64,000 nucleotides of DNA from Flavobacteriales bacterium (GTDB taxonomy: Bacteria; Bacteroidota; Bacteroidia; Flavobacteriales_E; Vicingaceae): NCBI GenBank assembly GCA_002706365.1, contig PALM01000017.1, positions 1 to 64,000 of the forward strand, in the 5' to 3' direction. Both the position numbers and the translations under genes were made by a program. Shown one piece after another: positions 8,784-18,930 of this stretch. Below the pieces are notes generated by a model. The model did no database searches. It was not told the origin of the DNA and worked only from the letters and a program-made list of their open reading frames with translations. How positions within the stretch are numbered: the first letter of the stretch is position 1; each line of letters begins with the position of its first letter.

Positions 8784-10166
8784 ATGAGTGAACTCAAGGC
8801 AGAGGACAAAAGCAATCAAAAAACCTACGAGCAAAAGCCAAGAGAACGTATTTATCCTATTGAGAAGCTGATCCGTCCGGTTGAAGAATTATTGCGCAAT
8901 CGACCAATATCCGGTATTCTTCTTTTCCTTTCTGTAATTGCCGCATTGTTCTGGGTGAATTCTGATGCTGCAGAGAGTTATCATCACCTATGGCAAAAAC
9001 GATTTACCATAAGCTTTGGCGACTATACCATTGATCGCAATCTACATCACTGGATCAATGAAGGATTAATGGGAATATTCTTCTTCGTGGTTGGCTTGGA
9101 GATCAAAAGAGAGATCATACTTGGGGAACTCTCTTCTTGGAAAAAAGCCTCCCTTCCAGTTGCTGCTGCAATTGGTGGTATGCTAATGCCCGCCCTGATC
9201 TATACATTTTTCAATGCAGGTGAATATGGCGAGTCTGGTTGGGGTGTGCCAATGGCAACAGATATTGCATTCTGCTTGGGGATACTTTCCTTATTGGGGA
9301 ACAAAGTGCCAATTAGCTTAAAGATCTTCCTTACAGCCTTGGCCATAGTAGACGACTTGGGTGCAGTGCTCGTAATTGCCTTCTTCTATACCAATGACCT
9401 CTTCATCTTCTACCTGGAATTTGCCCTTATCTTCTTTGGTTTGCTGGTAGCAGGAAATCTTTTGGGTATTCGCAATACTTTGTTTTACGCTGTTCTTGGT
9501 ATTCTAGGAGTATGGGTATCCTTCCTAAATTCGGGAGTGCATGCCACTTTAGCTGGTGTAATTGTGGCGATGACCATTCCGGTTAAAGCAAAGATCAATG
9601 AGCAAAAGTTGATCATTCAGTTTGCAAGACTATTGGAACGCTTCAAGAACACTAAGAAAGTAAGAGGATTCTATGTAAGTGAGCAACAGGGTGAAATCAT
9701 AGAACAGATCAAAGAAACCCGAAAGAAAGCAGAGTCGCCACTTCAAAAGATGGAGAACTCCCTAAACCCTTTTGTATCATTCATTGTACTTCCACTTTTT
9801 GCCCTTGCCAATTCAGGTGTAGAATTCAGCTCAGACCTTTGGACTAGCATGGCATCCAATGTTTCATTGGGTATCATATTCGGACTTATATTGGGAAAGG
9901 CAAGTGGGATAGCCGGTTTCTCCTATCTCTTTGTGAAGTTAGGTATCTCAGAGCTTCCGAAAAATACCAATTGGGGTGTTATGATAGGAGCAGGTATCAT
10001 GGGAGGTATTGGATTCACCATGTCGATTTTCATTTCTGAACTAGCCTTCCCATCAGAAGAAGTGAGAACCCAGGCCAAAATGGCAATCCTTCTTGCATCC
10101 ACATTAGCTGCGATCCTTGGAATGCTTGTGATCTCTATCTTCAGTAAGAAGATCACGAAAATCTAA
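8784..10166 (+). CDS. nhaA: Na+/H+ antiporter NhaA
   Basis: Inner-membrane sodium/proton antiporter. It contains the NhaA signatures GLEIKREI near the N-terminal membrane segments, VPMATDIAFCLG, the ion-binding Asp pair in IVDDLGAVLV, and a C-terminal GAGIMGGIGFTMS helix. At 460 aa it exceeds the roughly 390 aa of the E. coli protein. The extra length lies in a charged N-terminal tail (about 45 residues) and a charged cytoplasmic loop (about residues 270-320, rich in Lys, Glu and Gln), a form common in Bacteroidota. It starts one base after the previous stop, implying co-transcription. Confidence 0.95.
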   Translation: MSELKAEDKSNQKTYEQKPRERIYPIEKLIRPVEELLRNRPISGILLFLSVIAALFWVNSDAAESYHHLWQKRFTISFGDYTIDRNLHHWINEGLMGIFFFVVGLEIKREIILGELSSWKKASLPVAAAIGGMLMPALIYTFFNAGEYGESGWGVPMATDIAFCLGILSLLGNKVPISLKIFLTALAIVDDLGAVLVIAFFYTNDLFIFYLEFALIFFGLLVAGNLLGIRNTLFYAVLGILGVWVSFLNSGVHATLAGVIVAMTIPVKAKINEQKLIIQFARLLERFKNTKKVRGFYVSEQQGEIIEQIKETRKKAESPLQKMENSLNPFVSFIVLPLFALANSGVEFSSDLWTSMASNVSLGIIFGLILGKASGIAGFSYLFVKLGISELPKNTNWGVMIGAGIMGGIGFTMSIFISELAFPSEEVRTQAKMAILLASTLAAILGMLVISIFSKKITKI

Positions 10167-14198: not shown

Positions 14199-14229
14199 AA
14201 TTTAATTACCCAACCCTTTCTTTTTTCTC

Positions 14230-14264
14230 AGCGTCTTTACGACAAACAATTAAATCAAGACGCT
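14230..14264. promoter_or_regulatory. Inverted repeat abutting the start codon of the first PKD gene
   Basis: AGCGTCTT (14230-14237) and AAGACGCT (14257-14264) form a perfect 8-bp inverted repeat with a 19-base spacer. The second arm ends immediately before ATG 14265. It could be an operator or an mRNA hairpin next to the translation start. The repeat is seen; function is inferred. Confidence 0.5.
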
Positions 14265-15164
14265 ATGAGAAAGCACCTTTACTTATTTTTATCTCTTTTA
14301 TTTATTAGCTACACAGCTAGTCAGGCGCAATGTGTAGCAGATTATAATTTTACGACAAGCCCTAACAGTTTAACGGCGAATTTCTATGATTCTTCATCTC
14401 ATCCAGTAGGAATGCAAATGAATTATCATTGGTGGTTCAGTGATGGAAATGCTTCAAGTAGAGTACAGAACCCAACACATACATTCAGTCAGGCGGGTAC
14501 CTATATCGTATATCTTTCAATTTTTGATAGCCTTAATACCTGTTTTGATTCCCTATCATATTATGTAACGGTTCCTCAATCAAACCCTCAGGCATGTAAT
14601 GCTTCATTCACTGTTGGAATAGATACCAATTCAACCTTTACAGTATTGATTACCAATACTTCTTCAAACCTGCCATCTCATCAATATTCATGGGATTTTG
14701 GAGATAATTCAACTTCAAGCAATCGCAATCCAAGCCATGCGTATCAAAACTTTGGTGATTATCTAGTTTGCTTAACGATTTCAGACTCTCTTCAAAATTG
14801 TGTTTCTACTTTCTGTGATACCGTAGGTATGGACAGTTTAGGAAGACTCAAGTCAGGGGCAAATGGATTTAGTTTAAGAGTTGTAGATCCAATTGTCACA
14901 AATATTGAAGAAATCTCTTTAGAAAATGCATTAAAAGTTTATCCCAACCCAAGTAGTGATGTCCTTACCGTGGATCTATCTGCTATTGACCGACCAGTGA
15001 CCCTTCAGTTGCTTAATCTTAACGCTCAAGTAGTCAGTTTAACGAAGCGAACAATCGGCCAAAACAAGGTACAATTCGATCTGTCTGGTTTAACAGAAGG
15101 AATGTATCTTTTGCAAGTAGACGACGGAAAAAATAGGACCATCAAGAGAATAATAAAATGGTAA
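14265..15164 (+). CDS. PKD-domain surface protein with T9SS type A sorting domain (two PKD modules)
   Basis: A 299-residue secreted protein: signal peptide about 1-21, two PKD modules (about 22-105 and 110-190) each opening with a Cys-rich C-x-A-x-[YF] start and containing the WWFSDG or WDFGD turn typical of PKD folds. A linker follows, then a type A sorting domain from about residue 222 (VYPNPSSD ... GMYLLQVD). It is a paralogue of the next gene: the first module and the last module plus tail align closely. It probably begins an operon with that gene, a sigma factor and an anti-sigma-like protein. Likely surface adhesin or ligand (inference). Confidence 0.85.
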   Translation: MRKHLYLFLSLLFISYTASQAQCVADYNFTTSPNSLTANFYDSSSHPVGMQMNYHWWFSDGNASSRVQNPTHTFSQAGTYIVYLSIFDSLNTCFDSLSYYVTVPQSNPQACNASFTVGIDTNSTFTVLITNTSSNLPSHQYSWDFGDNSTSSNRNPSHAYQNFGDYLVCLTISDSLQNCVSTFCDTVGMDSLGRLKSGANGFSLRVVDPIVTNIEEISLENALKVYPNPSSDVLTVDLSAIDRPVTLQLLNLNAQVVSLTKRTIGQNKVQFDLSGLTEGMYLLQVDDGKNRTIKRIIKW

Positions 15165-15185
15165 GTGTTATCTTGAGTGGGATAA

Positions 15186-15224
15186 TGAGGCGGGAGTTTT
15201 CTCTCGCCTCATATTTTCTTTTTT
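15186..15224 (+). terminator. Intrinsic terminator or attenuator between the two PKD genes
   Basis: TGAGGCGGGAG (15186-15196) and CTCTCGCCTCA (15201-15211) form an 11-bp stem with one mismatch around a TTTT loop, followed by a T-rich tract to 15224. It would limit read-through from the first PKD gene into the second and the sigma factor, making differential expression likely. Confidence 0.75.
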
Positions 15225-15243
15225 AAAATGTAAACAACTACAG

Positions 15244-16926
15244 ATGAAAGATTTGTTATTAAGTAGCTTACTTATAGTAGCTACTTTTTTCAGTTTTTCA
15301 AGCCAGGCACAATGTGTAGCAAGCTACAATTTCACTACTACACCAAATAGCTTGACCGTTCAGTTCATTGATTCATCTTCACATCCTGTGGGGATGCAGA
15401 TGAACTATTATTGGTGGTTCAGTGATGGCAATGCCTCAAGCAGAGTACAAAACCCCACATATACCTTTAGTCAGGCGGGCACCTATATTGTCTACTTATC
15501 AATTTTTGATAGCCTAAATACCTGTTTCGACTCAACTTCACATTATGTAACCGTACCTGGGACTTCCCCTCCCTGTACAGCTTCTTTCAGTTATCAAATA
15601 CAGCCTAATGGTCAAAACTCAATTGTAAGTTTTACCAATCAATCCAGCTTTTATTCTGATTCTGCAATTTTTACTTACGACTATGGTGATAATCAATCGT
15701 ACTCAACCAAAGCTGCATTAGGCACATTAAATCCTCAGCATACCTATAGTCCAGGGAACTATGTAGTGAGCTTATCAATTATAGACTCACTATACAACTC
15801 GACTTGCTTCTATGCCGATACCATTGCTATTCCGGTGAATCCAATTCCTTGTTCAGTTGACTTTGCCTACACTTTTAGCCCGCAACAAAACACAACGCTT
15901 GTAGACTTTATTAACCTCTCGCAGAACTTCGATAGTACTGGATTCTTTACCTATAAATTCGGAGATGGGAATTCTCTTCAAATAAGCGCTTCTAGCCCCT
16001 CTATTGATACTCAGTGGGTCTACTCCCCTGGAAATTATGAATTCGAATTGAGTTTCTTCGATCCGATATCGACTGATAGCTGTTCGAAATCAGACTCTAT
16101 TCGCATTCCATACAATCAATACTGCAATGCAGGTTTTGATGTGAGTTTTCAAGGTGATAGCACATACTTCACGAATAGAGCAATCGGATATACTTCATTG
16201 ATCTATTATTTTGGGGATGGTGATTCTTCGATTCTGCCAAATCCTATTCACCAATACGCTCAGAGTAATAGATATACCGTTACTCAGATCATTTTTGATT
16301 CATTATCGAATTGCACAGATACAATTCAAAAAGATATTGATGTAAATATCTCTACTTCATGTATAGCTAGTTTCGTTCCCGCAATTGATACTACAAAGAA
16401 GCAATTGCTTTACCTCATCAATCAGTCTAGCGACATCTCAACTCATCAATATCAATGGTATTTTGGTGATGGATCTGTTGGGTCTAGCAGAACCCCATCA
16501 CATGAGTATGCCAGCTATGGAACCTACCCAATTTGTCTTACAGTAAGTGATTCTAGCCTCAATTGTGTAAGCACTTATTGCGATACTATAGGATTAGACT
16601 CCAACAGCAGATTCATTCGAAAAGCAGATGGATTTACCCTTCGTGTCTTGGATGGAGGCGCTATTGGAGTGGAAGAAAACAATGCTTTGAAGAGTATATC
16701 GGTCTATCCTAACCCCTTCAAAGATCAGATCAATCTAGACCTATCCAATGTCACAGGTCGAATTGATTATCAATTAGTTGGGATTAATGGTCAAGTAATA
16801 GCATCGGGAGTTATCGATCGCAGATATCACTCCTTGAATTTGAGTCATCTAGAAAACGGAATCTACTTTTTGATACTAAACCAAAGAGATAAGATTGAAA
16901 GAATAAAGGTCTTAAAGCTCAATTGA
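15244..16926 (+). CDS. PKD-domain surface protein with T9SS type A sorting domain (five PKD modules)
   Basis: A 560-residue paralogue of the preceding protein. Signal peptide about 1-22, then five PKD-like modules starting near residues 23, 114, 204, 297 and 378, each with a [WY]-[WFY]-x-F-G-D-G-like turn and paired cysteines. A type A sorting domain begins near 485 (VYPNPFKD ... GIYFLILN). The first module is nearly identical to that of its neighbour, and the last module and tail are clearly homologous, so the three middle modules mark the size difference. The sigma factor gene starts 13 bases downstream, so they are probably co-transcribed. Confidence 0.86.
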   Translation: MKDLLLSSLLIVATFFSFSSQAQCVASYNFTTTPNSLTVQFIDSSSHPVGMQMNYYWWFSDGNASSRVQNPTYTFSQAGTYIVYLSIFDSLNTCFDSTSHYVTVPGTSPPCTASFSYQIQPNGQNSIVSFTNQSSFYSDSAIFTYDYGDNQSYSTKAALGTLNPQHTYSPGNYVVSLSIIDSLYNSTCFYADTIAIPVNPIPCSVDFAYTFSPQQNTTLVDFINLSQNFDSTGFFTYKFGDGNSLQISASSPSIDTQWVYSPGNYEFELSFFDPISTDSCSKSDSIRIPYNQYCNAGFDVSFQGDSTYFTNRAIGYTSLIYYFGDGDSSILPNPIHQYAQSNRYTVTQIIFDSLSNCTDTIQKDIDVNISTSCIASFVPAIDTTKKQLLYLINQSSDISTHQYQWYFGDGSVGSSRTPSHEYASYGTYPICLTVSDSSLNCVSTYCDTIGLDSNSRFIRKADGFTLRVLDGGAIGVEENNALKSISVYPNPFKDQINLDLSNVTGRIDYQLVGINGQVIASGVIDRRYHSLNLSHLENGIYFLILNQRDKIERIKVLKLN

Positions 16927-16939
16927 GGTACTGCCAATT

Positions 16940-17497
16940 ATGCATATTGACAAAGAACTCATAAATGCTTGCTTAGAAAATGACAGACTAGCTCAAAACA
17001 GTTTATACAAGTTAGTTTTTTCATATCTGATGAGCCATTGCATCAGATATAAGAAAGACTATCAAACTGCCGGGAATAGCCTGAATGGAATCTTTTTGAA
17101 GATACTTACCCATTTAGGGGATTACGATGTTGAAGGCAGTTCATTCCAAGCTTGGATCAAACGTATTGCCGTAAATCAATTGATCGATGAGTATCGCAAA
17201 GAAGAAAGAGAAAAGAAGCATCTGGTTTTTGAAGAGAAGTTGAATTCAAATGAATTGAATCATTCAAGCTATGATCGCCAAATGCTTGAAATGGAATCTG
17301 AGTATCTGAGAAGAATGATATCAGAACTTCCACCAAAAACTGCAGCCGTCTTTAATCTATATGCAATAGATGGATACAAGCATAAAGAGATAGCTGAAAT
17401 GCTAGATATCTCAATAAACACATCAAAGTGGCATTTAAGCGATGCCAGGAAAAAACTTCAAGCCCGACTTGAGCTTGAGAAAAACACAATAGAATGA
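16940..17497 (+). CDS. ECF-type RNA polymerase sigma factor
   Basis: A 185-residue sigma-70 family protein of extracytoplasmic-function type. Region 2 spans about residues 5-90, including AWIKRIAVNQLIDEYRKEER, the -10 recognition/melting part. Region 4 (about 125-178) has a helix-turn-helix in HKEIAEMLDISINTSKWHLS followed by DARKKL, a form characteristic of Bacteroidota ECF sigmas. It directs core polymerase to a small regulon. Its stop overlaps the start of the next gene (ATGA, 17494-17497), the tight coupling usual for sigma/anti-sigma pairs. Confidence 0.92.
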   Translation: MHIDKELINACLENDRLAQNSLYKLVFSYLMSHCIRYKKDYQTAGNSLNGIFLKILTHLGDYDVEGSSFQAWIKRIAVNQLIDEYRKEEREKKHLVFEEKLNSNELNHSSYDRQMLEMESEYLRRMISELPPKTAAVFNLYAIDGYKHKEIAEMLDISINTSKWHLSDARKKLQARLELEKNTIE

Positions 17498-18930
17498 ATG
17501 CAGAAGAAATAGATGAATTGTTCAGGGAGGGAACGCAGGAGCACTTCCCATATGATGAGAAGCTATGGAATCAGGTGGAAGCTGATCTTCCGCCAACTGA
17601 TCAAAAGCGCAGATTTGGTGGCTATTGGATTCTAGGTTCCGCCATACTTATTGCTCTATTATCAGGCATATACTTTGTCAATCCAGTAGAAGAAAAGCAA
17701 TTGGCAGATAATCCACCACAAGCCTCACAAAATGAAGAAGCAATCACTTTGGCAGAGAATACCTCTGATGCAAGCAAGATAGAATCCAATGATAAAGAGC
17801 CTTTTGAACCTTCAAAATCAGCACTTACAGAAAGTCAGCATAAAACAACCGACTTAAATAAGTCTGAGCCTAGTAAGCAGATCAATAATAGCTCAAGCAA
17901 TCTTATAAGTAATGAGGTTTTGAAAACTGATACAAAGAAGAACGATCAAAAAGAAAGCAAGAACAATACTGATACTCAATTAGCTTCATTGCATGGAACT
18001 TTAAGCACTCATACAGCCATTAAGAATGGCAATGGTAAGTCGTCTTTAATAGAAACAGATAGAAATGATGATCTGGCTTCATTAAGTGTTAGCAAATTGG
18101 CTGAGGAGAATGAATTTAGCGACAATTTGAGAACGGAGAATATGAAGCTACTGACGCCATTTGGTTTTCAAACTAGTCCTATAAACAAAGAACCAATGAT
18201 AAGTCGGTCGCTAGTTGAGCACCCTACATCTTATAGCCCTCCTATTCTTCTTGAACTTCAATATAATACCTCATTGAGCGTAGAAAACAGAAATCAAACA
18301 GAAGCCAATGTTTCTGTGAGTCAATTTGCTTTATTGGGTATTAAAACCAAAGGCACATTCTCATATGGTGCAGGGATCAGATATCTAAAACTCATTGAAA
18401 GAGTGAGCTATAATATTGAGGACGAACGCCTAATTCAAACTACCATATCTGATACTAATTATGTGTTGGTAAATGGGAATTTCTCGCAGAATGGAGCTCC
18501 AATATGGTTGATCAAAGAAGAGATCAATACCTCCACTAATGAGGAATTACGAAGTGAGTCTTCATTGATCAGTGGAGAGAACATCCTTGAATCCATTCAG
18601 CTACCATTATTTGTTGGCTATCATTATCCAATTGGCAATTATCAACTTGGTCTGAGAAGCTCAATGGTACTGAGCTACCTTTATGCTGCTGAAGGATACT
18701 ATATGGATGAAGATCTGCAAAGCCTGGTGAAAATTGAAAACCCATCAAGCACTGAGTCCTTCTCAATTAATGTAGAAGCCGATCTCAGGTTTGGATATCG
18801 ATTGAATGAATTCTCATTGATCGGATCTAGCGTAAGATATCAATACGGTATAAGTGGAATAGCAACTTATGATGAAGCTAAATATGATGGGATGTTATTC
18901 GGATTGTGGATCCAACATCAATTCAAGTAA
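17494..18930 (+). CDS. Probable anti-sigma factor with inner-membrane helix and outer-membrane barrel-like domain
   Basis: A 478-residue protein in four visible parts. Residues 1-40 are a polar cytoplasmic head. Residues 42-62 form one transmembrane helix. Residues about 63-245 are a low-complexity linker rich in Ser, Asn, Lys, Glu and Thr. Residues about 250-478 are beta-rich with alternating aromatic residues and end in QHQFK, resembling Bacteroidota outer-membrane beta-barrel (porin-family) domains. No signal peptide is seen. The gene overlaps the ECF sigma by four bases, the usual anti-sigma position. The layout matches what I remember of dual-membrane-spanning anti-sigma factors (Dma) of Bacteroides; the assignment is inferred. 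Confidence 0.65.
   Translation: MNAEEIDELFREGTQEHFPYDEKLWNQVEADLPPTDQKRRFGGYWILGSAILIALLSGIYFVNPVEEKQLADNPPQASQNEEAITLAENTSDASKIESNDKEPFEPSKSALTESQHKTTDLNKSEPSKQINNSSSNLISNEVLKTDTKKNDQKESKNNTDTQLASLHGTLSTHTAIKNGNGKSSLIETDRNDDLASLSVSKLAEENEFSDNLRTENMKLLTPFGFQTSPINKEPMISRSLVEHPTSYSPPILLELQYNTSLSVENRNQTEANVSVSQFALLGIKTKGTFSYGAGIRYLKLIERVSYNIEDERLIQTTISDTNYVLVNGNFSQNGAPIWLIKEEINTSTNEELRSESSLISGENILESIQLPLFVGYHYPIGNYQLGLRSSMVLSYLYAAEGYYMDEDLQSLVKIENPSSTESFSINVEADLRFGYRLNEFSLIGSSVRYQYGISGIATYDEAKYDGMLFGLWIQHQFK

Follow-up and report, generated by a model that had tools for sequence, protein, structure and literature searches.

A four-gene operon in the window (by which we mean the whole 64,000-nucleotide stretch analysed) probably belongs, with a likelihood that we put at roughly 0.7, to an autoregulated ECF sigma regulon for T9SS-exported PKD surface proteins under the control of a Dma-like anti-sigma factor. 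The sigma factor would direct RNA polymerase to boxes of the form ACCCAAC-N17-CGT, turning on PKD1; most relatives have a further such box, through which PKD2 and the sigma and anti-sigma genes would be switched on and the sigma factor would raise its own level; a few further T9SS surface proteins encoded elsewhere, whose genes carry the box, would be co-activated. The short N-terminus of the anti-sigma factor would hold the sigma factor at the inner membrane, and its disordered tether would cross the periplasm to an outer-membrane barrel, so that sigma release would follow from a change at the outer membrane, the tether probably being altered or cut. Gene adjacency, the box and the predicted regulon content come from genome comparison, and the anti-sigma architecture from structure prediction. 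These results support in part the sequence-only reading of the locus, which had suggested that the PKD proteins could be ligands, sensors or regulon members whose state is read by the anti-sigma factor across both membranes.

Operon layout and conservation

The four genes proposed from the sequence are real: they lie on one strand, PKD2 is separated from the sigma gene by 13 bases, and the sigma and anti-sigma genes overlap by 4 bases (ATGA), as their ORF coordinates confirm (Table 1). The domains called for the first three genes were likewise borne out by Pfam (PKD_4, Por_Secre_tail, Sigma70_r2/r4_2) and NCBIfam (TIGR02937). PKD1 and PKD2 alike contain PKD_4 and Por_Secre_tail, the latter at E-values of 9e-15 and 6e-11, respectively, as expected of T9SS type A cargo, and their N-termini, judged by eye, resemble signal peptides (a basic start, a hydrophobic stretch and AQC). 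The sigma protein matched TIGR02937 (E 2e-23), Sigma70_r4_2 (2e-16) and Sigma70_r2, and only the ECF superfamily exceeded the cut-off in the NCBIfam scan. The upstream neighbour, dxs, stops 66 bases 5' of PKD1, and the promoter-like box sits between them, so that the operon could be independent of dxs.

Table 1. Features of the operon, and related anti-sigma-like proteins elsewhere in the family.
Feature	Position	Strand	Description
Promoter-like box, ECF type, ACCCAAC-N17-CGT	14208..14234	+	box start 57 bases 5' of PKD1 ATG; aligned with orthologous operons
PKD1	14265-15164	+	299 aa; 2 PKD domains, type A T9SS sorting domain, signal peptide (by eye)
Hairpin resembling an intrinsic terminator	15185-15212	+	12 pairs, loop 4, T-rich tail
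PKD2	15244-16926	+	560 aa; 4-5 PKD domains, type A T9SS sorting domain, signal peptide (by eye)
ECF sigma factor	16940-17497	+	185 aa; regions 2 and 4; in class-wide clade (tree)
Dma-like anti-sigma factor	17494-18930	+	478 aa; conserved N-terminus, AlphaFold2, Foldseek
Anti-sigma N-terminus, residues 1-32	17494..17589	+	predicted helices 3-17, 22-30 (AlphaFold2); conserved D7, F10, G13, W25, L32
Anti-sigma predicted single transmembrane helix, residues 44-62	17623..17679	+	AlphaFold2; hydropathy 2.0
Anti-sigma predicted disordered periplasmic tether, residues 63-237	17680..18204	+	pLDDT <50 at 62-234
Anti-sigma predicted C-terminal outer-membrane-type beta-barrel, residues 238-478	18205..18927	+	AlphaFold2, Foldseek
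Paralogous anti-sigma-like proteins with CHU_C T9SS signal	L002:2030-3382 (G000:C47); L003:2031-3119 (G000:C40); L055, L056, L062, L063, L068, L069, L221, L223		

The two PKD proteins have diverged unevenly. Over the last PKD domain and the linker leading to the T9SS tail, identity is about 55% between orthologues but about 44% between PKD1 and PKD2, and the first PKD domain reaches 80–88% between PKD1 and PKD2 within three of six genomes, versus about 40% between genomes. This pattern suggests that the first domain is homogenized within a genome by concerted evolution. In the window the first domains (14265-14580 and 15244-15560) are 88% identical, compared with about 40% for orthologues elsewhere.

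Close orthologues of the sigma factor, at 56–61% identity as opposed to 33–43% for paralogues in a sigma protein search of relatives, are present in eight of the 46 genomes of the order. Adjacency of the four families across Bacteroidota, named by the sequence-only reading among the things to check, was found on both scales: the order PKD(-PKD)-sigma-anti-sigma is kept in 8/8 genomes of the family that have a close orthologue of the sigma factor, and PKD genes lie near the sigma gene in most of the class loci described below. Two of the eight carry one longer PKD gene (one of these at a contig end), and in two genomes (G006, G019) the order is kept though the flanking genes are not dxs. The spacing between sigma and anti-sigma genes ranges from -4 to +6 among relatives, and the relatives with this adjacency are named Flavobacteriales/Bacteroidetes. 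In a tree, window-type sigma factors form one clade separate from the paralogues of the window's own genome, and the window's sigma factor falls in a group with a T9SS PKD gene upstream. One relative (G012, L075 at about 8911-9461) has an internal TAG in its sigma gene within an otherwise intact operon, which may be a pseudogene or a sequence error. Another locus (L110, PAVT01000013.1), titled Verrucomicrobia bacterium, has genes of this Bacteroidota family and is probably mislabelled.

A class survey took in 80 further regions picked by sigma score, whose neighbours were tabulated with home-made PKD and T9SS-tail profiles; L082, L194 and L214, where the script scored no sigma ORF, were excluded from the context table, and L075 was excluded from the locus counts for its internal TAG. 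The resulting counts are descriptive, since similarity of the sigma factor, and no random draw, decided which loci were taken, and these have ancestry in common: among 65 class loci (sigma 219–275 bits), 50 have a PKD gene on the same strand within positions -2 to +4, 46 have a PKD protein of 330–420 aa (about 370–375) at +2, straight after the anti-sigma gene, and 28 have a PKD protein with a T9SS tail. Many of the +2 proteins have a lipobox, and their PKD domain was verified by Pfam in the three examined. Some members of the sigma clade among these loci lack a neighbouring T9SS PKD gene. Throughout the class, the gene after a sigma gene of this clade encodes an anti-sigma of the type seen in the window.

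With 51 PKD matches in the window's genome the domain is common there, and unrelated PKD genes might on that account have come to lie beside a sigma pair by chance or hitchhiking. Because the arrangement recurs in other genomes, however, it stands above chance: the order is conserved with changed flanks, the box is conserved, and PKD appears in only two of 158 genes situated six or more positions away. Conservation thus rules out a chance neighbourhood, to which we assign a negligible probability.

Between PKD1 and PKD2 lies a terminator-like hairpin that the sequence-only reading had cast as an attenuator tuning stoichiometry. As a general rule, attenuation is ruled out by the relatives: all five that were folded have an equivalent strong hairpin in this gap, each followed immediately by a sigma box for PKD2, and hairpin plus box together imply two co-regulated units, PKD1 on the one hand and PKD2-sigma-anti-sigma on the other, with an ordinary unit boundary between them. 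In the window no sigma box was found after the hairpin upstream of PKD2, the hairpin lying 31 bases from the start codon, and transcription of PKD2, sigma and anti-sigma may depend on read-through or on an unseen promoter. Partial read-through would be the simplest route to the downstream genes, and if it occurs the attenuator idea is valid in the window; nonetheless, given what the same hairpin precedes in the relatives, we consider it unlikely that the hairpin sets PKD1 above the downstream genes.

The promoter-like box and the putative regulon

Upstream of the PKD genes, the operons of the family share ACCCAAC, exactly 17 bases and CGT, with one base differing in a few, and in other families the same box lies 5' of the sigma gene or of an adjacent PKD gene; the consensus from a logo is ACCCAAC(C/T)NTT..CGT(G/A)T. 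The core CCAAC-N17-CGT occurs in 85 of 181 regions upstream of the clade's genes for sigma factors, PKD proteins and proteins with T9SS tails, versus 0–5 matches in the same regions for alternative spacers (11–16 and 18–23). Controls were low throughout (dinucleotide shuffles, mean 0.3 and maximum 3; reversed pattern, 1; distant background genes, 0/158). The box was found upstream of paralogous sigma genes at none of 28 other ECF loci, and two paralogue sigma groups bear upstream boxes of their own, GGCAAC-N15/16-CGT(C/T) (L002, L055, L056, L068, L054) and TGCAAC..CATC (L003, L062, L063, L065, L069), about 40–100 bases before the sigma gene. That sigma clades have conserved upstream boxes of their own is the best evidence for assigning ACCCAAC-N17-CGT to this sigma factor, and from it we infer that the sigma factor uses the box. 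A scan for sigma-70 consensus promoters returned fewer sites than shuffled sequence did.

Since the box is conserved, of ECF type and peculiar to this sigma clade, the PKD genes are very probably members of its regulon. Of the three roles that had been suggested for the PKD proteins, this one is upheld by the box before their genes and by conserved adjacency, and they are most likely, on comparative grounds, an output of the sigma factor. The window's genome contains two exact box matches, of which one precedes PKD1 and the other the gene of a DUF7619 protein of 586 aa that ends in a T9SS tail (L224:145-1967, G000:C15; box at C15:145). Allowing one mismatch, where chance matches are expected and the reversed control gives three, the box also precedes an adhesin-like protein of >1613 aa with a T9SS-like tail at its end (C20) and a PorP/SprF-like gene identified by eye (L264:4530-5632, G000:C43). 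Beside the latter gene, the opposite strand encodes a PKD protein of 1467 aa. In other genomes of the family, box matches outside the operon fall mostly inside ORFs. Across 13 class genomes a stricter pattern gave 29 matches, versus 11 for the reversed control, and about 22 of the 29, counted by eye, stand before this sigma gene or genes for secreted/T9SS proteins.

Two further features of the box regions may be recorded. In the window, a perfect 8-base inverted repeat, AGCGTCTT/AAGACGCT (14230-14237 / 14257-14264), surrounds the box CGT and runs up to the PKD1 start codon; the expected transcription start would lie downstream of its 5' arm. In G143 (L189, L230, L241, L254) boxes are clustered, with two before the sigma gene, one before a PKD gene, one before an apparent broken copy of that gene's start and two with no ORF behind them.

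The anti-sigma factor and described systems

The anti-sigma protein had no family match in the Pfam and NCBIfam scans, and a search with it found no paralogue in its own genome at E 0.01. Its AlphaFold2 model was built from a shallow alignment of 12 sequences and has a pTM of 0.46, within which the strands of residues 238–476 are mostly predicted at pLDDT 80–96; the best PDB matches of the barrel in Foldseek are the outer-membrane barrels OmpA, NspA, OmpW and OmpT. Together, AlphaFold2 and Foldseek agree with the earlier description of an inner-membrane helix joined to an outer-membrane-like beta domain, predicted to reach both membranes. Residues 1–32 are the presumed sigma-binding part, the predicted tether of about 170–175 residues is long enough to cross the periplasm, and the protein apparently spans from cytoplasm to outer membrane. 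Other ECF anti-sigma-like proteins of the family (Table 1) have a membrane helix and a linker, in many cases also PKD, joined in a single chain to a CHU_C T9SS signal at the C-terminus, and look like T9SS cargo themselves.

FecI/FecR signalling of Bacteroidota PULs also links the cell surface to a sigma factor via an inner-membrane anti-sigma factor. Although an inner-membrane anti-sigma is common to both systems, Pfam and NCBIfam found no FecR domain in the window's anti-sigma, and no TonB-dependent receptor was seen by eye among the neighbouring ORFs; identity with FecI/FecR is thus ruled out.

The Das/Dma pairs of Bacteroides thetaiotaomicron are reportedly the subject of a 2024 PNAS paper. 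According to one account, they consist of an ECF21 sigma and a dual membrane-spanning anti-sigma, and deletion of dma2 most strongly induces the genes of its own operon (PMC13088901). The statement that no described system has this layout overlooked these pairs, whose anti-sigma architecture is the same (PMC13088901): like them, the window has an adjacent ECF sigma and anti-sigma in a Bacteroidota genome, and its anti-sigma has an N-terminal part and, by prediction, a single membrane helix, a long disordered tether and a C-terminal barrel. The neighbours differ, however. Das/Dma operons have DUF4943/DUF4858 neighbours or act via NigD1, with effects on vesicles and PULs, whereas the window has PKD/T9SS partners, which receive 0 mentions in the Dma2 paper; nor do its available parts note an ACCCAAC-N17-CGT box for Das/Dma (PMC13088901).

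Two other systems share single elements with the window. In PorA-PorXY-SigP of Porphyromonas gingivalis, an ECF sigma factor is influenced from the surface by a protein that carries a T9SS C-terminal domain, as may be the case here, but this is a two-component system whose regulon is the T9SS machinery, with no Dma-like anti-sigma described in the accessible portion of the source (PMC7712824). The SM6 ECF promoters of Flavobacterium psychrophilum likewise have CGT at -10, and their regulon extends to T9SS genes and to a sigma/anti-sigma pair, whereas the -35 ACCCAAC element, the spacer and the PKD targets present in the window are not described in the sections available (PMC9723704). Neither the PKD/T9SS partners nor the PKD lipoprotein, the box or the anti-sigmas with a T9SS signal were found described in the searchable literature, which includes few subscription papers and so gives weak evidence of absence. 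The sigma/Dma-like pair is of a described kind, while its PKD/T9SS partners and box appear to be new.

The signal sensed by Dma-type anti-sigmas is given as unknown in the Dma2 paper (PMC13088901). The anti-sigma here has conserved candidate surface partners and a sharply defined box, from which a regulon can be read from sequence alone in many environmental Bacteroidota; what such anti-sigmas sense becomes testable by reporter, and abundant, functionally blank PKD surface proteins gain a regulatory context.

Candidate signals

Within the regulon reading, two accounts of the signal have to be weighed. The PKD proteins could be output only, surface adhesins or a coat with no signalling role, while the barrel senses some unrelated, as yet unnamed envelope or extracellular cue, and to this we give an even chance. 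Regulon membership by itself would account for the adjacency and the boxes, some clade members do without a T9SS PKD neighbour, and the Dma2 authors propose that an unknown glycan is sensed at the outer-membrane surface (PMC13088901). Yet paralogous anti-sigmas fuse PKD and T9SS-signal domains behind a membrane helix, so that PKD and anti-sigma belong together there, and most of the class has a gene for a PKD lipoprotein after the anti-sigma gene.

Those same fusions, with the conserved adjacency, speak for the PKD proteins being the ligand, such that the anti-sigma barrel would be loaded by surface PKD proteins and read their display, as feedback on T9SS export. The pattern of PKD divergence (last domain and linker about 55% between orthologues, first domain homogenized in 3/6 genomes) points the same way, as does PorA, a T9SS-signal protein that influences a sigma pathway in P. 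gingivalis (PMC7712824). Co-regulation already explains the adjacency, however, and the contact between barrel and PKD protein is a presumed one, so that we regard this account as doubtful; the idea that the anti-sigma may read PKD proteins as ligands or sensors is encouraged by the fused paralogues. Wider still, and rather improbable in our estimation, would be a class-wide Bacteroidota system in which anti-sigma barrels read the display of sigma-made T9SS PKD proteins, export feeding back on transcription, and in which a sister family has fused PKD sensor and T9SS signal into the anti-sigma itself.
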